Positions 7,318 through 30,801 of a DNA stretch of 54,229 bases are shown one piece after another. The DNA comes from Brachyspira pilosicoli (GTDB lineage: Bacteria > Spirochaetota > Brachyspiria > Brachyspirales > Brachyspiraceae), in assembly GCF_008016535.1 (NCBI RefSeq), contig NZ_SAXY01000074.1, positions 1 to 54,229 of the forward strand, in the 5' to 3' direction. The position numbers and the translations under genes are program-made. Position 1 is the stretch's first letter; every line of letters begins with the position of its first letter. The notes under the pieces were generated by a model. It did no database searches and was not told the origin of the DNA. It was given only the letters and a program-made list of their open reading frames with translations.

Positions 7318-8097
7318 ATGTATAAAGAAGATATTAAAGGCAGATTAGCTTTTATTTCTGGGGCTAGTGCTGGTATTGGCGAAGCGGTTGCTAAAATGCT
7401 TGCTTCTAATGGCGTTAATCTTATTTTAACAGCGAGAAGAATTGAGAAATTAGAATCTCTTAGAAGTATGTTGGAAAAAGATTATAATGTAAAAGTAAAA
7501 GTTATAAAAGTAGATTATGCTGATACCAATAGTATAAAAAATGCTGTAACTTCATTAGAAAATGAATGGAAGAATATAGATATACTTATTAATAATGCAG
7601 GGCTTGCTTTGGGTAAGGATTATTTTTATAACAATGATATAGAAGACAGCTTACAGATGATAAGAGTAAATTGTGAGGGTTTAATAACATTAACAAAAAT
7701 GATAATACCTTTAATGCTAGGTAGTAAAAATGCAGATATCATTAATTTAGCTTCTGTTGCTGCAGATGAGGCTTATTTTGGTGGGGCTATTTATTGTTCT
7801 ACTAAATCTTTTGTAGAGATGTTTGGAGATGCTTTAAGAATTGAGTTAATAGATAAGCCTATAAGAGTAACAAATATAAAACCAGGTGCTGTAAACACAG
7901 AGTTTTCTACAGTTAGATTTAAAGGAGATAAAGAAAAGGCTGATAATGTTTACAAGGGTTTTGAACCTTTATATGCAGAAGATATAGCCGATAATATAGA
8001 GTATGTTATTACTAGAAAAAAACATGTTCAAATATCTAGTATGACTATTTTAGCGGGCAATCAAGCCACAGCCACTATGATACATAGGGGTAATTAA
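7318..8097 (+). CDS. Short-chain dehydrogenase/reductase (YdfG-like)
   Basis: This 259-aa classical SDR has the cofactor motif GASAGIG (residues 15-21), NNAG (92-95) and the catalytic S146, Y159 and K163 (YCSTK). An Arg pair after beta2 (TARRIEK) indicates NADP(H) preference. Closest in flavour to YdfG-type NADP-dependent 3-hydroxy acid/serine dehydrogenases; the substrate cannot be read from sequence. It starts 29 bases after the lipoprotein gene with a weak ribosome-binding site and is 27 bases from the next gene. Confidence 0.88.
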   Translation: MYKEDIKGRLAFISGASAGIGEAVAKMLASNGVNLILTARRIEKLESLRSMLEKDYNVKVKVIKVDYADTNSIKNAVTSLENEWKNIDILINNAGLALGKDYFYNNDIEDSLQMIRVNCEGLITLTKMIIPLMLGSKNADIINLASVAADEAYFGGAIYCSTKSFVEMFGDALRIELIDKPIRVTNIKPGAVNTEFSTVRFKGDKEKADNVYKGFEPLYAEDIADNIEYVITRKKHVQISSMTILAGNQATATMIHRGN

Positions 8098-8124
8098 TAA
8101 TTATATTTTTAGGAGTTATTTTCT

Positions 8125-10005
8125 ATGGGTGATATAGATAATACTAGAAATAGATTAAAACTAGATAATCTTAAAGAAGATGATAGAAGAAATTTGTTTA
8201 ATAAGTTTGTAGATGCAGGCGGCGAGGTAATAACTAACAGAAAAAAGCAATCTGCTCCAGATTATTCATATAAGAGAAGCACCCCTAGTTATAATAAGCC
8301 TAAAAATACTAACTCTAATAGCACTCCAAGAGGAAATTATGTTTATACTAATACCTCTCAAGCTGCTAAAAAAGAGAAGCCAAACAATACTTTAATTGTA
8401 AAAAAGCAAAAGAGTGTATTTTTAAGTTTAAAATTATGGTTAGATGCCTTATCTAATAAAGTAATAACAACCTTTGGAGGAAATGTACATAATAAGTTTT
8501 TGGGTTTTATAGATAAGAATGTTATTTCAGCATTTTTAGAGATGGACACTCTTATATTCAATGCTTTAAATCCGGTAGATGATAATTCTCTAGAACCTAA
8601 AAGTAAGAAAGAAAAAATATTAGCTCAATTTGCTAATGATTTGGAAGATGTTGAGCTTTTAGAGCGTATAAAAGGTCAATATGATGAAAATATTTATAAG
8701 ACTTTTTTAAGACAGTATAAAGATTTACACTCTACAACAAAAGCTAGCAGTTATGTGAATGAACTTAAAGCTATGTTTAAGCCTTTATATATTTTGCATG
8801 CTTATTCTTCAAAATTAAAATTGGCTGGAGAAAAAGCCTTGCTTGCATATTCTATAGTAGATAATATTAGTAAAGGTGTTATTAATCCTAGAATATCTAA
8901 TTTTAAAAAGGATGTAGATTTAATATATTCAAAATATTATCCAAAATTATTTTCTTTGCTTCAATATGCTTCTAAAGAAAAACTTGAAACATTATCTGAA
9001 ATCAATAATTTTCTAGGAATTACAGAAACAGATGTAGTTGGATATTATACTAAATTAAAAAAAGAAAAAGAGTTAAAACAAAAAGAAGAAATTACAAAAC
9101 AGCATCAGGAAGAAACAAAAGAAACTCAAACACCTGAAGACAATGAAGAAGAAAAATTAATGAAAATAGAATCTATAGGTGTAAAACTTATAGAGAAAGT
9201 GGTTTCATATAGAAAAGCAGATAATAATATAGAGATAGAAGGAGACCCTTTCTTCAATGTATTGGATACTGATAAAATATATAGAATAAAAGTGTTATTA
9301 GATTTTTTGGATAGAGAATATTCTGTATTATTTGTTTCTAATAAGGTAAAATATAATTTAATTTATGATAATTTAGTGAGAACAGATTATAAGAGCGATT
9401 TTAATAATATATTTTTATCATTATCAGATTCCAATTCTAGATTTTTAGAGTATAGCGATATGTGCAAGAATGCTTTAAAAGTAGAACGAGATACATCTCT
9501 TAGATTTGAGCAGAGAGTATCTATGTTAGCTGAAAAAAATGGACAAATATCATACACTGCGAAGAATTTAAAATCACATATAGTTTCTATTATATCATCT
9601 TTAAAAAAGAAATTAGACAAATTATTATTAGATAAAGAAGAAAGAGAGAGAATCATAGCAAATCCTAATGATATATTAACATTTTTTATTGATGTCAGCG
9701 GAAGTAAAAAGAGAATACAAGGATATAATGTATTAAAAGCTTTAACAGAGGCTTATTATTTTATATCTGGTTTTTATTATTTAATTACTTCAGGAGAATT
9801 AGCTGGTGCTGGAATATTAATAGAAGGCTCTAAAAAAGCAGAAGAATATAAAAATAATGAAGATAATAATGTTAATAATAATGATGAAAAAAAAGATGAT
9901 TTAGATGATAATTTACAAAAATTAGAGAAAGAATTTACAGAAGATGATAATGCATCTGAATCAAAAAAAGAAGAAAATAATATTGGCGGAAACGATCAGG
10001 AGTAG
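8125..10005 (+). CDS. Unknown 626-aa charged protein
   Basis: I do not recognise this protein. Residues 1-85 are polar and Asn/Ser/Lys-rich (disordered). Residues 100-320 and 345-580 look predominantly helical, with many Leu/Ile/Lys/Glu heptads. They are separated by a Glu/Gln/Lys-rich linker near 310-345 (KEKELKQKEEITKQHQEETK). The last 60 residues are an acidic Asn/Asp/Glu tail. There is no signal peptide; a short hydrophobic stretch (about 545-570, AYYFISGFYYLITSGELAGAGIL) could be membrane-associated. The ribosome-binding site is TAGGAG. Its stop lies 3 bases before the acyltransferase start, so the two genes are probably cotranslated, which hints at an envelope role. Confidence 0.8.
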   Translation: MGDIDNTRNRLKLDNLKEDDRRNLFNKFVDAGGEVITNRKKQSAPDYSYKRSTPSYNKPKNTNSNSTPRGNYVYTNTSQAAKKEKPNNTLIVKKQKSVFLSLKLWLDALSNKVITTFGGNVHNKFLGFIDKNVISAFLEMDTLIFNALNPVDDNSLEPKSKKEKILAQFANDLEDVELLERIKGQYDENIYKTFLRQYKDLHSTTKASSYVNELKAMFKPLYILHAYSSKLKLAGEKALLAYSIVDNISKGVINPRISNFKKDVDLIYSKYYPKLFSLLQYASKEKLETLSEINNFLGITETDVVGYYTKLKKEKELKQKEEITKQHQEETKETQTPEDNEEEKLMKIESIGVKLIEKVVSYRKADNNIEIEGDPFFNVLDTDKIYRIKVLLDFLDREYSVLFVSNKVKYNLIYDNLVRTDYKSDFNNIFLSLSDSNSRFLEYSDMCKNALKVERDTSLRFEQRVSMLAEKNGQISYTAKNLKSHIVSIISSLKKKLDKLLLDKEERERIIANPNDILTFFIDVSGSKKRIQGYNVLKALTEAYYFISGFYYLITSGELAGAGILIEGSKKAEEYKNNEDNNVNNNDEKKDDLDDNLQKLEKEFTEDDNASESKKEENNIGGNDQE

Positions 10006-10008
10006 GAA

Positions 10009-10938
10009 TTGGCTTACAAATCGAAAAAAATTATTATGCTTGAATATATTCCATTAAGAATATTAATGGAGATTATATCATTTTTTCCTTATATTTTTGT
10101 GATATTTTTTGCAAAGATTATAGGGATTTTAATGTTTTATGTAGCTCCAAAGACGAGGAAAATTGCTTTAATTAATTTGAAGCAGGCTTTTCCAGAGAAA
10201 TCTTATTTGGAGAGGCGACTTATTGCTAGACGATCTATGAAATCTATGATGATGACTTTTGCTGAGTTTATAAAGGCTTCAAGAATGTCTAATAAGCAGA
10301 TACTAAATCGCATAAAAATAGAAGGTATAGAGATATTTGATAAGGCTCTAGAAGAAAATAAGGGTATAGTAGCTATTACTGGGCATATTGGTAATTGGGA
10401 GTATATAGCTTCATATTTTGGTATTAAGGGTTATAATCCTAGTGTTATAGTGAGGCCTTTAGATAATCCAAAATTAGATACTTATATGAAGTCTTGGAGA
10501 GAAAAGAGGGGAGTTAAATGTATTGCTAGAAAGGGCAATTTAAAAGATATATTTTATACTTTAAGAGAGAATAAACCTGTTGCATTTTTATGTGATCAGA
10601 ATTATATAGATGGAATTTATGTTGATTTTTTTGGCGAAAAATGTGCAACTGCTGTCGGTCCTGTTGCAGTAGCAATGAAAACTAAAGCTCCTATGGCTAT
10701 ACTTTATGATGTGCCAGATAGGTATGGTCATCATAAAATAATTGTATCAGAAATAATGCGTATAGAAGAGAAATCAACTAAAGAGGAGACTTTATATCAT
10801 AATACTCAAAGATATACAAAAAAGTTAGAAGATATTATAAGAAAATATCCTGAGAATTGGCTTTGGTTGCATCCTAGGTGGAATACTCGTCCTAATGGAG
10901 AGCCTGAAATTTTTTATAAGCATAATAATTATAGATAA
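10009..10938 (+). CDS. Lysophospholipid/lipid A acyltransferase (LpxL/HtrB family)
   Basis: This 309-aa protein has an N-terminal membrane segment (about residues 20-45) and the catalytic H-x4-E motif at H126/E131 (TGHIGNWE). Further LpxL-family blocks follow (PLDNPKLD, CDQNYIDGIYVDFFG, NWLWLHPRWNTRP). LpxL/HtrB enzymes add acyl chains to lipid A precursors; some spirochaete members probably act on other glycolipids. The start is TTG at 10009, supported by AGGAG 6 bases upstream inside the end of the previous gene. The next in-frame ATG (10036) has no ribosome-binding site. Confidence 0.88.
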   Translation: MAYKSKKIIMLEYIPLRILMEIISFFPYIFVIFFAKIIGILMFYVAPKTRKIALINLKQAFPEKSYLERRLIARRSMKSMMMTFAEFIKASRMSNKQILNRIKIEGIEIFDKALEENKGIVAITGHIGNWEYIASYFGIKGYNPSVIVRPLDNPKLDTYMKSWREKRGVKCIARKGNLKDIFYTLRENKPVAFLCDQNYIDGIYVDFFGEKCATAVGPVAVAMKTKAPMAILYDVPDRYGHHKIIVSEIMRIEEKSTKEETLYHNTQRYTKKLEDIIRKYPENWLWLHPRWNTRPNGEPEIFYKHNNYR

Positions 10939-11044
10939 TTTTACTTTACTTTTTTATAATAGGTTTATATAGTGAAATCATCATTCAATCAATATAGTAA
11001 AATTAGTTATATAGAAACCACAATTATAGGAGGTAATTATATAT

Positions 11045-14622: not shown

Positions 14623-14675
14623 ATGTTTAAATTATTGAAAAATATTTATTTGTTTAATTTTTTTTATAAAAATGA

Positions 14676-14704
14676 TTGCAATAATTATAATTTAATGTTA
14701 AAAT
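14676..14704 (+). promoter_or_regulatory. Promoter ahead of the heptanucleotide repeat
   Basis: TTGCAA (14676-14681), a 17-nt spacer and TAAAAT (14699-14704) predict a start near 14711, about 26 bases before the repeat tract. The repeat would therefore be transcribed as part of the operon leader. Confidence 0.6.
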
Positions 14705-14732
14705 GTATAAAATGATTGAAAGCGGAGATAGA

Positions 14733-14909
14733 ATGACAGTCAACAGTCAACAGTCAACAGTCAACAGTCAACAGTCAACAGTCAACAGTCAACAGTCAAC
14801 AGTCAACAGTCAACAGTCAACAGTCAACAGTCAACACTTCATAATTTATTTTTGTCTTTATCATTACATAGAAAAAACATATCCTTTGTGTTTTATCAAA
14901 AAATTATAA
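14733..14909 (+). CDS. Leader ORF containing the heptanucleotide repeat
   Basis: An ATG at 14733, with GGAG 5 bases upstream, opens a 58-codon frame that reads through the repeat as tandem TVNSQQS units. It ends at TAA 14907-14909, 33 bases before the next gene. The peptide has no recognisable function; its frame may matter more than its product. With one repeat more, the same start would read in another frame to a TGA at 14951-14953, overlapping the start of the 14943 gene. With one fewer it would stop at 14842. Translation is inferred, not shown. Confidence 0.45.
   Translation: MTVNSQQSTVNSQQSTVNSQQSTVNSQQSTVNSQHFIIYFCLYHYIEKTYPLCFIKKL
14737..14834 (+). repeat. Heptanucleotide tandem repeat (CAGTCAA)14
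   Basis: Fourteen perfect head-to-tail copies of CAGTCAA occupy 98 bases between the promoter and the first gene of the surface-decoration operon. A unit of 7 bases is not a multiple of 3, so each gain or loss shifts any frame crossing it. Perfect identity implies recent slippage. Confidence 0.98.
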
Positions 14910-14942
14910 ACTCAAAAGAGCTCATTTCTTGGGAGGATTATA

Positions 14943-17930
14943 ATGTTTTTTGATATACTTTATAATATTTTAATATACCCTATAGAATTTATTATAGAAA
15001 TATTATTCTATTTGTTTAATAATGTATTTAAATCAAGTTATGGTATAAGTTTATTTTTACTTAGTATATGTATAAATTTTTTGTCGCTTCCTCTATATAA
15101 TATAGCCGAATCTTGGCAGGCTAAAGAAAGAGCCATACAAGATAAAATGAAGCCAATGATAGATAATATTAAGGCTGTATATAAAGGAGATCAAAGATAT
15201 TTATTAATTAGAGCTTGTCAAAGAATAAATGGATACAAAACAATATATGCTTTTCGCGGTACTTTGGGACTTTTAATACAAATTCCTTTCTTTATGGCTG
15301 CTTATAATTTTGTGCATAGTTTAACAGGATTAAACGGTGTGCCTTTTTTATTCATTAAAGATTTATCTAAGCCTGATGCTTTAATTCATATAGGCAGTTT
15401 TAGTATTAATTTGCTTCCATTTGTAATGACTTCATTTAGCTTATTAGCAGGTTTTGTTTATTCTAAAAAATTAAATTTTAAGGAGAGTCTTCCTTTATAT
15501 ATAGTATCATTAATATTTTTAGTTTTATTATATACTTCACCTTCAGGACTTTTATTTTATTGGACTATAAATTGTTTGTTTTCTTTATTAAAAAATATTG
15601 TAATTGAATACAAGCTTTATAATATATTTGTAGTTAATAAACATAAATTATTAAAAGCTTATAATATATTTTTTATTATAGTTACAATATTATTTATATT
15701 ATTAATCTCTTTAGGAAAAATAGAAAGAAAGGCGTATTTATCTGATTTTAATTTTATTTTTATTAAAAATAATAATAATTATGTATACTCTGCTAGAATA
15801 AAATATTACAGCAAAATATTTATAAGCAGTGATATATTTGAATTTAGAGGTAATGTTAATAAGCTTACAAAACACATAAAAAAAATAGAATTTAATGGTC
15901 TTAATACTAAAAATGCTATTGTAGAATTAGATAAAGATATAAATACTATAAATGAAAATATAGATATTTATTATACATTATCTCCTAAATCTTATTCAAT
16001 TAATATATATACTTTTTTATTAATATTAACTTTTATAGTTAACATAGGTAATGTTTACAGATTGATATTTAAAAATAAAGAAGAGGAGTTTTCTTTTACA
16101 TCTATTAGAGATAAATTGATTATTATATCTTGTATTGTTATAAGTATATTGTCTGGCTTATTTATACCTACTTCATTAATAGGTAATTCCCCTCAAGAGT
16201 TTACTAATCCTTTTTATTTAATATTTAATAATTTATCTATATGTATTGGATTATTTTTATTTTACCCTTTATTTATATATTCTTTATTTTCTGAAAGAGT
16301 TAAAAATTATTTGACATTATTGATAGTTTTTTTAGTTTTTATTGTACTTATAAACACATTTATAATGACAGGAAATTATTTAAATATTAATGCTGATTTG
16401 ATATTTGATAATTCTAATTTGCTTATATCATCTTTTAAAGAAATATTTTTGATGCTGTTATTAATTATATTATCTCTATTATTAACGATTTTTATTTTAA
16501 AGAAAAATAATACTATACTTATTAATATTTTTTATATTATATTAATTGTATTTGTATTTATTTCTTCATTTAATATTTATAAAATTATAAAATCTCATAA
16601 TAGTTTTGTGAAAAATGATTATATTGCTAATAATAGTAATAGCTTAAAGATATTTAATTTATCAAAGACAGGTGAAAATATATTTGTTTTTATCCTTGAC
16701 AGAGCTATAAATTCTTACTGGATAGATGCTTTGGAAAGATATCCAGAGTATAAAGAAAAATTAGATGGTTTTACTATTTATCCTAATACAGTTTCTTTTT
16801 CTGATTTTACAGCTACAATAGCTTCTTTATATGGGGGATATGATTATCTTCCTTATGAATTGAGTACAAACAACAATTATAGTATAAAAGATAAACATAA
16901 TGAAGCGTTATTAATGTTGCCAAGAGCATTAGAAAAATATGGTTATAAATCATCTATATTAGAGCCTGTTTATGCTAATTTTCAATATACACCTGATTTA
17001 ACTATATTTAAAGATTATACTAATGTTAAAGCTTATAATAATAATGTTATTGATAAAGATAGTATTGCAAAATATTTTAATCTAGCTGATTTTAATATTA
17101 ATGAGTATAATAAGATAAAACAAAAAAATAGATTTATAAGATTTTCTATATTAAGAATGCTTCCTATTAATTTAAGATATGATTTTTACAGTAATGGTAA
17201 TTGGTTTAATATTGATAGTTTTAATATTAATTCAAGTATATATTCTTATGCTATTTTGAAGAACACTAAAGATTTAATCAATATAAAAGAAGAAGGTAAT
17301 TATTATAATATACTTCATAATATGATAACACATGAACCGCAGTTTTTTGATTCTGATTGTTTACCTTATTTTGAATCGAAAAATGTTAAAGATGAAGATT
17401 TATTAATTTATAAAGATGAATTGAGTGTAAGGCATTTTTATGCTAATGTGGCTTCTATAAATATTTTAATCGATTTTATAGAATATTTAAAAACGAATGA
17501 AGTTTATGATAATACAAAAATTATATTAGTTTCAGATCATGGGCGAGATGTTAATACAAGAGTATTTGATGGTAATTTAAAATTTGCTTCTTGGTACAAT
17601 GCTTTGCTTATATATAAAGATTTTAACAAGAGAGGTGCGATAGAAATAAATACTAACTTTATGACTATAGCTGATACTCCTTATTTAGCAGTTAAACATA
17701 TACCAAATATAAAAAATGTGTTTAATAATAAGATTATTACAAATGATTATAAGACAAATGGAGCTTATATAATTCAATTAAACAAATGGGAGATTAGTAA
17801 GCAATTTTATAATTATTATAATTTTAACTATTATTATTATGTTAAAGATAACATATTTAATATAAATAATTGGGAAAAATTTAAAATAGATATAAAAAAT
17901 AAAAATATAGAAGAAGCGCAATTAAAATAG
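14943..17930 (+). CDS. YidC/Oxa1-like membrane domain fused to sulfatase/LTA-synthase-like domain
   Basis: In this 995-aa membrane protein, residues 1-225 resemble YidC/Oxa1 insertases: paired segments around LSLPLYNIAESWQAKERAIQ, a KMKPMIDNIKAVYKGDQRYL helix, then GLLIQIPFFMAAYNFV and later membrane segments. Residues 240-560 contain a loop region and about six more membrane segments. From residue 573 an alkaline-phosphatase-superfamily domain follows: FVFILDRAINSYW, SFSDFTATIASLYGGYD (candidate nucleophile Thr/Ser), THEPQFFD, and the metal motif VSDHGRD near 862. This domain resembles enzymes that move phospho-alcohol groups (LTA synthase, phosphoethanolamine transferases). Ribosome-binding site GGGAGG. 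The genes that follow handle CDP-linked alcohols, so I infer a role in transferring a phosphoglycerol- or phosphocholine-type group onto surface glycans. Confidence 0.8.
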   Translation: MFFDILYNILIYPIEFIIEILFYLFNNVFKSSYGISLFLLSICINFLSLPLYNIAESWQAKERAIQDKMKPMIDNIKAVYKGDQRYLLIRACQRINGYKTIYAFRGTLGLLIQIPFFMAAYNFVHSLTGLNGVPFLFIKDLSKPDALIHIGSFSINLLPFVMTSFSLLAGFVYSKKLNFKESLPLYIVSLIFLVLLYTSPSGLLFYWTINCLFSLLKNIVIEYKLYNIFVVNKHKLLKAYNIFFIIVTILFILLISLGKIERKAYLSDFNFIFIKNNNNYVYSARIKYYSKIFISSDIFEFRGNVNKLTKHIKKIEFNGLNTKNAIVELDKDINTINENIDIYYTLSPKSYSINIYTFLLILTFIVNIGNVYRLIFKNKEEEFSFTSIRDKLIIISCIVISILSGLFIPTSLIGNSPQEFTNPFYLIFNNLSICIGLFLFYPLFIYSLFSERVKNYLTLLIVFLVFIVLINTFIMTGNYLNINADLIFDNSNLLISSFKEIFLMLLLIILSLLLTIFILKKNNTILINIFYIILIVFVFISSFNIYKIIKSHNSFVKNDYIANNSNSLKIFNLSKTGENIFVFILDRAINSYWIDALERYPEYKEKLDGFTIYPNTVSFSDFTATIASLYGGYDYLPYELSTNNNYSIKDKHNEALLMLPRALEKYGYKSSILEPVYANFQYTPDLTIFKDYTNVKAYNNNVIDKDSIAKYFNLADFNINEYNKIKQKNRFIRFSILRMLPINLRYDFYSNGNWFNIDSFNINSSIYSYAILKNTKDLINIKEEGNYYNILHNMITHEPQFFDSDCLPYFESKNVKDEDLLIYKDELSVRHFYANVASINILIDFIEYLKTNEVYDNTKIILVSDHGRDVNTRVFDGNLKFASWYNALLIYKDFNKRGAIEINTNFMTIADTPYLAVKHIPNIKNVFNNKIITNDYKTNGAYIIQLNKWEISKQFYNYYNFNYYYYVKDNIFNINNWEKFKIDIKNKNIEEAQLK

Positions 17931-17989
17931 TTTATCTCTATATTAAAAAATTATACTATTTATTGATATATTAAATTTTAGGAATAAAT

Positions 17990-19279
17990 ATGATAATTAC
18001 TATTTTAACATTGTTTATATTAATTCAAAATAATGTTTTTGGATATATAGACCCTGGAACAGGAAGTTTACTTTTTTCAGCACTTTTTGGTATAATAGGA
18101 ACACTTTTCTTCTTATCAAAAGCATTAGTGATAAAGTTAAAAACTATGTCTTTTTCTAAAAGTAAAAATATAGAAACAGAAGCTTCAAAAAAGGCAAGAA
18201 TAATAATTTATGGAGAAGATAAAAGATATTATAATGTATTTAAGCCTATAATAGAGGAACTTATAAAATTGGAAATACCAGTAATATATTATAGTTCAAG
18301 TGAAGATGATCAAATTTTTGAAATGAAAAATGATTTACTTCATACTGAGTTTATAGGGGTAGGTAATAAGGCTTATGCTAAACTAAATTTTATAGAAGCT
18401 GATATTTGTTTAATGACTACACCTAATTTAGATGTATTTCAATTAAAACGCTCTAAAGGAGTAAAAAAATATATTCATATAACCCATTCATCAGCAGAGA
18501 CATCTACTTATTGTTTGTATTCATTGGATTTTTTTGATATTGTATTTTTAAATGGTGAACATCAAATAAGAGATATACGCGAGCTAGAAAGAAAAAGAAA
18601 TGCTATTATAAAAGATTTATATGTTGTAGGAAGTCCATATTTAGATGAATTGTCTAAACTTAAAAGTACTGTTGTTAAAGAATTAAAAGGAAAATATAAA
18701 GATAATAGAAAAACAGTATTGTTAGCTCCATCTTGGGGTATGAATTGTATTTTTAGGAGATTTGGTGAAAAACTAATAGATAATATAGTTAATTCAGATT
18801 ACAATGTTATAATAAGACCTCATCCTCAATCTATAATATCTGATAAAGATATTTTGGATAAATTTAAAGAAAGATATAAAGACAAAGATAATGTCGAATG
18901 GGATTTCAACAGATTAAATATTTATTCATTATCAAGAGCTGATATTATGATATCCGATTTTTCAGGTGTTATATTTGATTATTTGTTTTTATTTGAAAAG
19001 CCTGTTATAATACCAAGTTTTGTATTTGATAAAAGAGGTACAGATGCAATAGAGATAGATGAAGAAGTATGGACTTTTGAAACTCTGCCAAAAATAAGTT
19101 TTAAGTTAGATGAAAGCAATTTTTCAAATATTTCTTCTATAATATCTCAAACAATTAATAATAATGCATTAAGAGATAATATTATTAAAGCAAAAGAAGA
19201 AGCTTATATGTATCCTGGTGAATCTGCTAAAAGATCTGCTGATTATATAAAAAATATGCTTGCTGATTTATCTATATAA
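17990..19279 (+). CDS. CDP-glycerol glycerophosphotransferase-family protein
   Basis: This 429-aa protein starts with a membrane segment and the N-terminal motif YIDPGTGSLLFS, then a second hydrophobic helix (to about residue 45). A TagB/TagF-like GT-B domain follows: GVKKYIHITHSSAE, VVGSPYLDEL, LLAPSWG, VIIRPHPQS and DIMISDFSGVIFDYLFL. Family enzymes transfer glycerol-phosphate from CDP-glycerol to a membrane-bound acceptor. No CDP-glycerol synthesis gene (tagD) is nearby, so the donor is uncertain; CDP-choline from the next gene is a conceivable alternative. Ribosome-binding site AGGA; 60 bases after the fusion gene. Confidence 0.85.
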   Translation: MIITILTLFILIQNNVFGYIDPGTGSLLFSALFGIIGTLFFLSKALVIKLKTMSFSKSKNIETEASKKARIIIYGEDKRYYNVFKPIIEELIKLEIPVIYYSSSEDDQIFEMKNDLLHTEFIGVGNKAYAKLNFIEADICLMTTPNLDVFQLKRSKGVKKYIHITHSSAETSTYCLYSLDFFDIVFLNGEHQIRDIRELERKRNAIIKDLYVVGSPYLDELSKLKSTVVKELKGKYKDNRKTVLLAPSWGMNCIFRRFGEKLIDNIVNSDYNVIIRPHPQSIISDKDILDKFKERYKDKDNVEWDFNRLNIYSLSRADIMISDFSGVIFDYLFLFEKPVIIPSFVFDKRGTDAIEIDEEVWTFETLPKISFKLDESNFSNISSIISQTINNNALRDNIIKAKEEAYMYPGESAKRSADYIKNMLADLSI

Positions 19280-19293
19280 ATTAAGGTGATGTT

Positions 19294-20760
19294 ATGAAAG
19301 CTATAATACTTGCTGCAGGAAAAGGAACTAGATTAGCACCAATGACTTTAATAAAACCTAAGCCATTATTGAAAATAAACGGAAAAACATTGCTTGAGAA
19401 TATGGTAAAAATATTAAAGAATAATGGAGTAGATGATATAGTTGTTGTTGCAGGATATAAACATGAAATGTTTGATGAATATAAAGAAAAACTTGGATTT
19501 AAAAAAGTTATATATAATGATTATGCAGTTAAAAATAGCAGTGCTTCATTAAAATTTGTTATAGATGAGATAGTAAAAGGTACAATGATATTTAATGGAG
19601 ATCTATATTTAAAAAATAATTTTTTTTCTTATATAAGATCAGATTCATCTCAGTTTTTAGCTCAGAAAATAGTAGATGGTGTTACATCTTGGGGATATAT
19701 AGTTGATAGGAATTTTAAATTAATAGATATAGATACCAATGCTACAAGTGGTTATGGAGATGGTATAGCAGTATTTGATAATGAAGAAGATGTGAAAATT
19801 TTAAAGGAAGAACTTCTTAATACGTCTGATGATGAATATTGGGAATATTGTGTTTTAAGATCAATAAATAAAATAAATTTTTATGCTTTTAATCATGATG
19901 ATTTATATGTTGAAATAGATTCTTTTAAAGATGCTTTATATCATGATTTGATAACCCCAAAAGAAATAGCTGAACAATGTTCTGATGATGGAAAAATTGA
20001 TAAACTTGCAGGGATAACAAATGTTAACTATAAAATTAAATTTTTAGGTGAAGATAAAATTATAAGAATACCTGGTAAAGGTACAGAAAATATAATAGAT
20101 AGAACTTCTGAAAAGAAAATATTATCTCTTATATATGATAAAGACATAGTACCAAAAAGTGATTTTTATGAAAGTGATATAAAATTGACTGATTTTTTAT
20201 ATGGATATAGGTCTTTAGATTTTAATGATTTAAAAAATTGTGATATTATTTTTCCTTTGATTGCAGAGCAAATGAAAAAACTTCATAATATTAGTCATGA
20301 AGATCATATGGATTTTAAAATTATTTCTATGGTAGAAGAAATAGAAAATTATGAAAACCTTTCTCAAATAAAAATAGTTAATAAATCAGAACATAAATTC
20401 TTATTAAATTTAGCTAGAGATATGGATAAAGGTAAGCAAGTATTATGTCATAGAGATTTACAGCTTCCTAATATAATGTATAATGGTGAAATAATAAAAT
20501 TTGTTGATTTTGAATATGCAGGTTTTAGTTCTATATTGTGGGAGCTTGGTAATTTCACAGCCGAATTAGAATTAAACAAAGATCAAATAATGAAATTTAT
20601 AGAAATTTATAAAGATATAACCTATGAAGAAATAATTATAGGTCAGATGATGTCAAATTATATATGGGCATTATGGGGCTGGATTTATGATTCCATAGAT
20701 TTAGGAAGGAATTATCTTTCTAGATTTCATTCTAATATCAATTTTTTAATGAAAAAATAA
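19294..20760 (+). CDS. licCA: LicC-LicA fusion: phosphocholine cytidylyltransferase / choline kinase
   Basis: This 488-aa protein has two parts. Residues 1-235 form a nucleotidyltransferase domain (ILAAGKGTRLAPMTLIKPKPLL; metal-binding GDLY; YGDGIAVF) of the LicC type. Residues 245-488 form a choline/ethanolamine-kinase-like domain (KFLGEDKIIRIPGKGTENIIDR; catalytic CHRDLQLPNIMYN at about 385-397; FVDFEYAG; LGNFTAEL) like LicA. Together they would turn choline (or ethanolamine) into the CDP-linked form. Fused licCA genes are known in treponemes, where they feed CDP-choline phosphatidylcholine synthesis. Ribosome-binding site AAGGTG; 14 bases after the previous stop. Confidence 0.88.
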   Translation: MKAIILAAGKGTRLAPMTLIKPKPLLKINGKTLLENMVKILKNNGVDDIVVVAGYKHEMFDEYKEKLGFKKVIYNDYAVKNSSASLKFVIDEIVKGTMIFNGDLYLKNNFFSYIRSDSSQFLAQKIVDGVTSWGYIVDRNFKLIDIDTNATSGYGDGIAVFDNEEDVKILKEELLNTSDDEYWEYCVLRSINKINFYAFNHDDLYVEIDSFKDALYHDLITPKEIAEQCSDDGKIDKLAGITNVNYKIKFLGEDKIIRIPGKGTENIIDRTSEKKILSLIYDKDIVPKSDFYESDIKLTDFLYGYRSLDFNDLKNCDIIFPLIAEQMKKLHNISHEDHMDFKIISMVEEIENYENLSQIKIVNKSEHKFLLNLARDMDKGKQVLCHRDLQLPNIMYNGEIIKFVDFEYAGFSSILWELGNFTAELELNKDQIMKFIEIYKDITYEEIIIGQMMSNYIWALWGWIYDSIDLGRNYLSRFHSNINFLMKK

Positions 20761-20783
20761 AAAAGACTTTTATGGAATAATTT

Positions 20784-21674
20784 ATGGGACAATATTTATT
20801 AGGACATTTTTTAGCATTTTTAAGTGTATTTTTTTGGTCTTCTCTTTATGTTTCTACTAAGATATTATTGGAAGACTTTACTCCTCTTGAATTACTTGTG
20901 ATGCAGTTTGTAATAGGCTATTTATTTTTATTAATAATAAAACCTAAAAGACTTGTGCTTGAAAATAAAAAAGATGAAATATATTTTGCACTTTGCGGTT
21001 TAACAGGTATCACTATATATAATTTGTTTTTAAATTTAGCTATAGATTATTCTTTGGCATCAAATGTTAGTGTCATAATAGCAGCAGCTCCTTTATTTAC
21101 AGGTATATTTTCATTTATATTAAAAATAGATAAGCCGTATATAAATTTCTTTATTGGATTTATTATATCAATTATAGGTATTATCATATTGAGTTTTAAT
21201 GGTAAAATAGAACTTCAATTAAATCCTTTTGGAGATATTTTAGCAATAATATCAAGTATGGGATGGGGACTTTATTCTGTTTTGATAACAAAGATTACAG
21301 ATAAAAAATATGATGTTATTTTATCTACTAGAAAAATTATATTTTATGGAATAATATTTATGATTCCTTCATTTTTGTTTTTAGATTTTAGCCCAAATTT
21401 TTTAGCATTAAAAAAACCAGTAACATTATTTAATATGATATTTGTAGCAACTTTTGCTTCTGGTATATGTTTTATTATATGGAATAAGGCTACTTATTTG
21501 ATAGGGGCTATTAAAACTAATATATATGTATATTTAACTCCAGTTATTACTATTATAGTTTCTATTATTATACTTAAAGAGAAAGTAACTTTTATATCTA
21601 TTTTAGGCATGTTTTTAACATTATTTGGGGTTATTATTTCAGAACTAAGAAGAAATAAAATATTTAATAAATAA
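20784..21674 (+). CDS. EamA/DMT-family permease, LicB-like
   Basis: This 296-aa protein has about ten membrane segments arranged as two EamA repeats (residues 5-135 and 150-290), with the typical FFWSSLYVSTK start and FGVIISE end. Haemophilus and pneumococcal LicB choline permeases belong to this superfamily. Directly following a LicC-LicA fusion (23-base gap), choline or ethanolamine uptake is the natural reading. DMT transporters are diverse, so the substrate is inferred from context only. Confidence 0.82.
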   Translation: MGQYLLGHFLAFLSVFFWSSLYVSTKILLEDFTPLELLVMQFVIGYLFLLIIKPKRLVLENKKDEIYFALCGLTGITIYNLFLNLAIDYSLASNVSVIIAAAPLFTGIFSFILKIDKPYINFFIGFIISIIGIIILSFNGKIELQLNPFGDILAIISSMGWGLYSVLITKITDKKYDVILSTRKIIFYGIIFMIPSFLFLDFSPNFLALKKPVTLFNMIFVATFASGICFIIWNKATYLIGAIKTNIYVYLTPVITIIVSIIILKEKVTFISILGMFLTLFGVIISELRRNKIFNK

Positions 21675-26707: not shown

Positions 26708-27743
26708 TGTCATGGAGCCATAGATATTGTACTTTTACTTGCTATAATATTTTTGATTCTTTCTTTGATTGTAATATAACCTAACGAAGAAATCAATCTT
26801 TGATTGTTATAAAAATGTGTATATTCTTTTAATTTTTCTCTCAATAATTCTACAGTTATATTTTTATTTAATCGTGAATAAAATTCTCTTTCGTCTATAC
26901 CGTGTACTCTTTCTACTACGCCATTGTATCTTGGTGTTGCTACAGGAATATATCTCCTCTCTAATTTATTTTTTAAGCAGTATTCATCAAAAATATTTAT
27001 TTTAGGAGTATTAATACAGCGGTATGTATATTCCATACCATTATCGGTCTGTATAGCTTGTATCTTAAAAGGTGAAGTTTTTAAGACATACTTTAAGAAA
27101 GATAAAGCACTATAAGGTGTTTTATCCTCATAGATTTGCCTCCAACTATAACGAGTAGCTAAATCTACAGCAGTGAACTGATAGACTGTTTTTCTGCCTA
27201 ATTTGATATATTTAGTATCTATTTGAACTATTTTGCCTTCTTTTTGTATTTTAGAGACAAATTTTCGTTTATCATATCGCTTCTTTTTCTTTTTTGTTTT
27301 ATATCTCCAAAGATTATTTCTTTTTAGTACATTCTCTATAGCTGTAACACCTATCTTAATGCCTTCACGATTTAAATATGCTTTAATATAATGTTTTCCC
27401 CTATACTCTTCAGTATAGAGTTTAATAATTAAATTAATAGCTTCTTGATTATTAAAGATATTTGGAGAAGTTTTCGGTCTAGTACTAAAATTAGCAACTG
27501 TTCCAGTATTTTTATATTTCTTAATCCAAGTATAAAAAGTAGATTTGGGTATTTCTTCTATCTTTAGAAATCTTTTAATATTTTTAGTTTCTAATGCTTC
27601 ATCCACTATAAATAATTTAAATTCTGTGCTATAATCTTTTTTCATAGTAGCATCCTTTTTATTTGTTTTATGTTCAAAATATTATAACAAGGATACTGCT
27701 TTTTTTATACTAAAAAATGTCCAATATCTCATACTCCTTAACA
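26708..27743 (-). mobile_element. Complete IS481-family element with 14-bp target duplication
   Basis: The ends are TGTCATGGAG (26708) and, reversed, TGTTAAGGAG (27743). They are imperfect inverted repeats of about 25-30 bp that share GGAG and AGATATTG blocks and have the family's TGT...ACA tips. The element is 1036 bp. Both flanks carry ATTCAGATTGTATA (26694-26707 and 27744-27757), a 14-bp target-site duplication, so the insertion is intact and comparatively recent. Confidence 0.92.
26710..27645 (-). CDS. IS481-family transposase
   Basis: This 311-aa protein has an N-terminal helix-turn-helix (KRFLKIEEIPKSTFYTWIKKY) and a second one near 90-115. An rve integrase core follows with D143 (VQIDTKYI), D201 (IQTDNGMEY) and E245 (NGVVERVHG), then a YNNQRLISSLGY end. 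It is intact. The stop codon lies 2 bases inside the element tip. The C-terminal 108 residues are identical to the copy at the left edge of the window. Confidence 0.93.
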   Translation of the reverse strand: MKKDYSTEFKLFIVDEALETKNIKRFLKIEEIPKSTFYTWIKKYKNTGTVANFSTRPKTSPNIFNNQEAINLIIKLYTEEYRGKHYIKAYLNREGIKIGVTAIENVLKRNNLWRYKTKKKKKRYDKRKFVSKIQKEGKIVQIDTKYIKLGRKTVYQFTAVDLATRYSWRQIYEDKTPYSALSFLKYVLKTSPFKIQAIQTDNGMEYTYRCINTPKINIFDEYCLKNKLERRYIPVATPRYNGVVERVHGIDEREFYSRLNKNITVELLREKLKEYTHFYNNQRLISSLGYITIKERIKNIIASKSTISMAP

Positions 27744-30693: not shown

Positions 30694-30801
30694 TTATCTC
30701 ATTGTCTTGTCTTGTCTTGTCTTGTCTTGTCTTGTCTTGTCTTGTCTTGTCTTGTCTTGTCTTGTCTTGTCTTGTCTTGTTAAGAAAATAAAGCTTTTCA
30801 T
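30694..30801 (-). CDS. Leader ORF containing the pentanucleotide repeat
   Basis: An ATG at 30801, within 2-3 bases of the predicted transcript start (so possibly leaderless), begins MKSFIFL, continues as five TRQDK units through the repeat and stops at TAA 30694-30696. With 14 or 17 repeat copies instead of 15, this frame would join the frame that stays open to the end of the lipoprotein gene. With 16 it would stop at once. Translation is inferred; there is no Shine-Dalgarno site. Confidence 0.35.
   Translation of the reverse strand: MKSFIFLTRQDKTRQDKTRQDKTRQDKTRQDKTMR
30706..30780 (-). repeat. Pentanucleotide tandem repeat (CTTGT)15
   Basis: Fifteen perfect CTTGT units on the plus strand (ACAAG on the transcript strand), preceded by a partial TTGT, lie between a strong minus-strand promoter and the lipoprotein gene. 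The 5-base unit shifts frame with each copy change. Confidence 0.98.

Follow-up and report, generated by a model that had tools for sequence, protein, structure and literature searches.

A repeat-bearing leader ORF and a predicted start-hiding hairpin suggest phase-variable translation of a LicD-less, putative surface-decoration operon in Brachyspira pilosicoli

What does a perfect tandem repeat of CAGTCAA do in front of four closely spaced genes of Brachyspira pilosicoli, and what might those genes make? The surface of host-associated spirochaetes such as Brachyspira is poorly known, and full-text literature searches turned up no description of phase variation through repeats in the genus. 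The commonest role of such repeat tracts is translational frame switching inside a gene. A first-pass annotation of the window (the whole stretch analysed, 54,229 nucleotides) had described a promoter, (CAGTCAA)14 and four genes as a lic1-like phase-variable operon. The array and the genes (14943-21674) are as described (Table 1). The promoter does match the consensus; its support above chance is slight, however, as a consensus scan gave seven matches against 3.9 expected in shuffles.

Table 1. Positions of the leader, its signals and the four operon genes in the window
Feature	Position	Strand	Evidence
Sigma-70-like promoter, candidate (TTTATA-17-TATAAT)	14663..14691	+	consensus scan only
Second, weaker sigma-70-like promoter candidate	14676-14704		consensus scan
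Leader-ORF Shine-Dalgarno, GGAG	14724..14727	+	sequence; most related loci with complete upstream also have such a motif and a start codon ahead of the repeat
Leader ORF, assembled state n = 14, 58 aa; ATG 14733, stop TAA 14907-14909	14733..14909	+	
CAGTCAA heptanucleotide array, 14 perfect copies	14737..14834	+	sequence
Predicted RNA hairpin over Shine-Dalgarno and start region of first main gene	14894..14955	+	
Shine-Dalgarno of YidC-sulfatase gene, GGGAGG	14931..14936	+	sequence
Stop/start overlap with main ATG: TAA 14941-14943 (TAATG); TGA ending 14953	14941..14953	+	
YidC-like and alkaline-phosphatase-superfamily (sulfatase-like) fusion, 995 aa	14943..17930	+	Pfam
CDP-glycerol glycerophosphotransferase-like, 429 aa, YIDPGTGS N-terminus	17990..19279	+	Pfam Glyphos_transf E 9e-11
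LicC-LicA fusion (cytidylyltransferase and choline/ethanolamine kinase), 488 aa	19294..20760	+	Pfam NTP_transferase and Choline_kinase
EamA/DMT-superfamily permease, 296 aa	20784..21674	+	Pfam EamA

The array falls within a separate leader ORF, outside the first main gene. The leader ATG and its Shine-Dalgarno sequence, which place the repeat there, had been missed; the idea of a repeat-based switch is retained here as a model, with the tract in the leader rather than in a surface gene. A 7-nt unit cannot be divided into whole codons, and each extra copy therefore changes the leader frame; for copy numbers of 0, 1 and 2 modulo 3 the leader stop lies at +10, -99 and -34, respectively, from the A of the main ATG. 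Hence at n = 15 the leader ends 10 nt beyond the main ATG and at n = 13 it ends 99 nt upstream, while at the assembled n = 14 the stop is 34 nt upstream and inside the 5' arm of a predicted hairpin (see below), which makes the window's own assembled state ambiguous. One of the window's two coupling frames is closed by two stops, and fusion of the leader to the main ORF is possible at no copy number.

We compared 26 Brachyspira genomes, one per species. CAGTCAA arrays occur in 17 of them and the pattern read backwards in none (0/26), so the occurrence exceeds chance. Relatives of the YidC-sulfatase protein (E below 1e-100) were found in 15 of the 26, with paralogues in several, and arrays stand at the equivalent position upstream of sixteen such relatives, the window locus included. 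Five repeat units are used at these loci (CAGTCAA, AACAGCA, GCAAACC, TTCTCAC and TCTCA), all of them 5 or 7 nt long and none divisible by 3; copy numbers in the CAGTCAA arrays run from 9 to 20. Wherever the contig extends far enough, a start codon directly precedes the array (units CAGTCAA, AACAGCA, TCTCA and TTCTCAC), with a Shine-Dalgarno-like motif at most such loci; the GCAAACC locus starts at a contig edge and its upstream region is incomplete. Several contigs terminate in or at CAGTCAA arrays (G018:C6, G018:C38, G019:C15, G019:C16, G021:C102, G022:C8 and G022:C48), and draft genomes therefore under-report such loci and their copy numbers.

Between the repeat and the main ATG, 26 of the 48 frames at the sixteen loci are open compared with 3.8 expected from 2000 dinucleotide shuffles (highest shuffle count 10), although the loci are homologous, so that these counts are not independent events. 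Every locus (16/16) has at least one frame that reaches the main start and at least one that stops earlier. The open frames end on the main ATG itself (TGATG, TAATG, ATGA) or at +10/+13, and in the main group a stop at +10 (or +13) is found in 14 of 14 loci. The usual stop of the third register lies 55-94 nt upstream of the main ATG, ahead of the hairpin arm at about -50. Loci with complete leaders represent every kind of state: the B. alvinipulli paralogues L019 (n = 9) and L036 (n = 10), whose post-repeat sequences are almost identical, have leaders ending at 0 and -91. Five leaders lack a repeat (L014, L018, L035, L054 and L056) and all five are in a traversing frame, as expected if the traversing state is the active one.

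The 5' flank and repeat unit of L041 and L023 are near-identical and the sequence right behind the array differs, which would fit an exchange of the leader end. In L040 (genome G007, 7651-10988, minus strand) a YidC-sulfatase paralogue is split into two frames, with another repeat-encoded ORF upstream (MINNQQSTINNQQ...).

A hairpin is predicted for the segment from -60 to +20: its 5' arm, for which most loci have ATCAYAAACTC, pairs with the Shine-Dalgarno sequence and the surroundings of the ATG. These predicted structures are AT-rich. The window hairpin has a z-score of -2.90, and covariation was found in its relatives. Median z was -3.46 for 21 leader loci versus +0.84 for 10 leader-less paralogues (Mann-Whitney p 4e-5, a value that overstates independence because the loci are homologous). 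In an alignment of 18 sequences the pairing held in 90.9% of cells compared with 52-60% when the partner was slid, and the covariation score was 0.143 against at most 0.076; columns 20/54, for instance, read CG in eight, UA in seven and UG in two sequences. L020, the leader of an orthologous four-gene operon (L111 in G001), and L024 differ strongly from the rest in leader sequence and have other repeat units, yet in both the ATG is buried in a stem. By z-score the hairpin is weak in L035, L053, L054 and L057, and the leader-less control L058 has a strong one.

The start-hiding hairpin was absent from six other CAGTCAA leaders tested, before an MFS transporter and other genes, and it was rejected as a general trait of such leaders. 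In most of the MFS-transporter leaders (L092, L094, L095 and L098, in four genomes, with from 6 to more than 18 copies) a single long frame runs up to the vicinity of the Shine-Dalgarno sequence. Leaders with a long open frame and no hairpin suggest that the leader may be used in more than one way.

From the leader and its frames, the predicted hairpin with its covariation, their conservation and the donor modules described below, we infer switching, coupling and a chemistry. Our main reading, to which we give a probability of roughly 60%, is that a phase-variable leader controls translation of the operon, which would make CDP-choline or CDP-ethanolamine and place the phospho-head group on the surface. 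The short ORF with its own Shine-Dalgarno sequence would traverse the heptamer array, and slippage by one unit would change its frame, so that the leader ribosome would halt either well ahead of, or beyond, the hairpin hiding the YidC-sulfatase start. If the leader ended at the main ATG or shortly behind it (TGATG/TAATG or +10), its ribosome would open the hairpin and initiation could be coupled (ON); with a stop upstream the hairpin would remain closed (OFF). Gain or loss of one repeat would probably turn the operon on or off. In the window the prediction is ON for n = 15, OFF for n = 13 and low or intermediate for n = 14, because the stop at n = 14 falls within the 5' arm. Judged by sequence comparison, this leader arrangement, a probable switch, is real, conserved and unusual, and the LicD-less operon behind it, probably for surface decoration, is of a type widespread among spirochaetes.

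A broader reading, which we offer tentatively, is that Brachyspira has a genus-wide class of switch with exchangeable 5- and 7-nt arrays, hairpin unzipping, a stop/start handover and up to three levels of expression, in which leaders of differing sequence and unit have converged on, or swap, one shared design. If the main reading is true, this would be a second leader-based phase-variation mechanism beside the streptococcal attenuator, and host-associated spirochaetes would possess a switchable surface modification with interchangeable chemistry (choline or ethanolamine phosphate, or phosphonate).

The closest known arrangement is that of pil1 in Streptococcus gallolyticus, where a simple sequence repeat in the leader acts together with a transcription terminator (Danne et al. 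2014, PMC3894217). The pil1/pil3 and Brachyspira loci share a tandem repeat in a short leader ORF with its own ribosome-binding site upstream of an operon, and in both a change in copy number moves the leader into a frame with a different stop, with longer leaders ON (in Brachyspira by prediction) and two of three frames ON, as is predicted for most Brachyspira loci. However, pil1/pil3 have a strong terminator hairpin between leader and gene, and transcription is what is controlled. In Brachyspira it is the start of the gene itself that lies under the conserved hairpin, leader stops overlap with the ATG, most units are heptamers, and many loci across one spirochaete genus show the design. Placing a repeat in a leader is a trick known from one streptococcus, and the version with a genus-conserved start-hiding hairpin looks new.

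Transcriptional control of the pil1 kind, in which an untranslated leader RNA would end early by an intrinsic or Rho-dependent route unless a long leader is translated, is in our view unlikely here, despite that direct precedent. L020 does carry a perfect 7-bp palindrome and a T-rich sequence immediately behind its repeat, and the hairpin-less open frames of the other CAGTCAA leaders would fit polarity or Rho control. But L020 is the only one of 21 leaders with a candidate terminator, the window has no intrinsic terminator between leader and gene, and a conserved structure over the Shine-Dalgarno sequence and ATG, together with stops overlapping the start codon, is what translational coupling would be expected to leave.

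We consider it improbable that the array works through its length, by setting promoter or mRNA spacing or mRNA stability, or that it is a neutral mutational hot spot. Array length does vary between loci, over the 9 to 20 copies of CAGTCAA noted above, but the array sits 3' of the likely promoter, and neither version would lead one to expect the conserved start codon, the open frames, the stop/start overlaps or units of 5 and 7 nt. Classical translational phase variation, with the repeat in the first gene's N-terminus and frame shifts breaking the gene as in lic1 and in neuO, where heptamers serve this purpose (PMC3046976), is the most usual role for tracts of this kind and has counterparts in the genus in CAGTCAA arrays inside restriction-modification-like genes (in frame in L096), but we rejected it as very improbable, since the main-ORF frame between array and main ATG is closed at all sixteen loci (open at 0/16) and the main ATG, where orthologues begin as well, has a strong Shine-Dalgarno sequence of its own.

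Turning to the operon products, the first protein matches Pfam 60KD_IMP (YidC-type; E 3e-21, residues 33-222) and Sulfatase (E 6e-7, residues 625-878). It was rejected as the housekeeping YidC because it scores 81.6 bits against the NCBIfam YidC model, below the cut-off of 84.3, and a separate YidC-type frame of about 630 aa is present at G000:C54. The sulfatase-like residues D586, T623/T625, H797, D865 and H866 are conserved in six relatives. With a pLDDT of 48 for the AlphaFold models, whether of the whole protein or of its sulfatase domain, the top Foldseek matches of the domain, which include MCR-1, EptA and LtaS, are only a hint to its subfamily and substrate. The domain shares the alkaline phosphatase superfamily with these three enzymes but, unlike them, is joined to a YidC-like domain.

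In the third protein, residues 1-214 align to pneumococcal LicC (1jyk, E 5e-24) and residues 232-465 to a LicA-type choline kinase (4r77, E 8e-18), in each case the best solved relative. Both domains are full length, and comparison supports the proposal of a CDP-activated alcohol. The permease had been called LicB-like; it belongs to the EamA/DMT superfamily, but it matched general models only and LicB specifically is not supported. The absence of LicD (PF04991) noted for the window extends to all 26 Brachyspira genomes. The operon thus resembles Haemophilus lic1 (licABCD) in having LicA and LicC activities, a DMT-type permease and a phase-variable tract, and differs in that LicD is missing, LicC and LicA are fused, the repeat is a heptamer in a leader ORF rather than a tetramer in licA, and a YidC-sulfatase and a glycerophosphotransferase are added.

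Among the Brachyspira genomes, LicCA or LicC (E below 1e-40) was found in 12 of the 15 that encode the YidC-sulfatase and in 0 of the 11 that do not (Fisher p 5e-5, uncorrected for phylogeny). The YidC-sulfatase itself is present in 69 of 296 sampled Spirochaetota genomes, and at nearly all of thirteen loci inspected outside Brachyspira it has a Glyphos_transf relative in its vicinity, so the pair is widespread and the novelty first claimed for the gene combination does not hold for it. Beside this conserved pair the donor genes vary: LicCA with a DMT permease (window, L111), LicCA with the ethanolamine permease EutH (L103, L114) or, in B. alvinipulli (L006/L041), phosphonopyruvate decarboxylase, PEP mutase, AEP transaminase and a stand-alone LicC. 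EutH and the three phosphonate enzymes passed their NCBIfam cut-offs. Such exchange of donor modules fits surface tailoring with exchangeable head groups.

The B. alvinipulli loci, with the pair followed by PEP mutase genes, recall PntC (PMC6697681), whose cytidylyltransferase is of the same family as that of the window. In contrast to PntC, the window enzyme retains a kinase domain and its genome has no full PEP mutase; and the stand-alone LicC of the aminoethylphosphonate modules lacks Trp133 and has FWE instead of YWE, whereas the fusions, the window's among them, retain Trp133 and YWE. A PEP mutase also lies on the contig carrying the pair in G018. In G009 the PEP mutase gene of an aminoethylphosphonate module (G009:C2:1395993-1397845) is interrupted by stops and adjoins an aminotransferase fragment and LicC; this is a decaying cargo module.

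These comparisons support a CDP/CMP-activated surface decoration without LicD. The exchangeable EutH and aminoethylphosphonate genes of relatives support the earlier surface-decoration reading; the window head group would be either choline or ethanolamine, and EutH in some relatives points to ethanolamine. The operon would yield CDP-choline or CDP-ethanolamine, and the glycerophosphotransferase and/or the outward-facing sulfatase-like domain may transfer phospho-choline or phospho-ethanolamine to a surface glycan or lipid.

LicCA-dependent phosphatidylcholine synthesis is described in Treponema denticola, and the operon might likewise serve phospholipid synthesis, by a CDP-choline or CDP-ethanolamine route to phosphatidylcholine or phosphatidylethanolamine. 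We hold this to be a poor prospect. Just one CDP-alcohol phosphatidyltransferase, a PgsA-like protein of 185 aa, is encoded in the window's genome, which makes such a role less likely; moreover, the operon is centred on the glycerophosphotransferase and the sulfatase-like protein, and relatives swap LicCA for aminoethylphosphonate genes, which suits surface tailoring (PMC6697681).

At L096, L101 and L102, CAGTCAA arrays lie within large restriction-modification-like genes or where these begin, in frame at the first locus and apparently out of frame at the other two; this would be classical phase variation with the same repeat unit. The window holds a second array, (ACAAG)15 (30706-30780, minus strand), with a leader ATG at 30801 close to a good promoter. 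With 14 or 17 copies its reading frame would continue into that of a lipoprotein gene some 300 nt further downstream (ATG 30406), and with the 15 assembled the leader stop comes 288 nt ahead of that ATG, so that this array is probably another phase switch, OFF in the assembly. Near the contig end, about eight 35-nt repeats of GTCTCGATACCCTACTGTATGTAGGAAAGCGGGAT with unlike spacers (499-988) form a CRISPR-like array, which adjoins a transposase fragment (51-377); a full copy of the transposase is found at 26710-27645.
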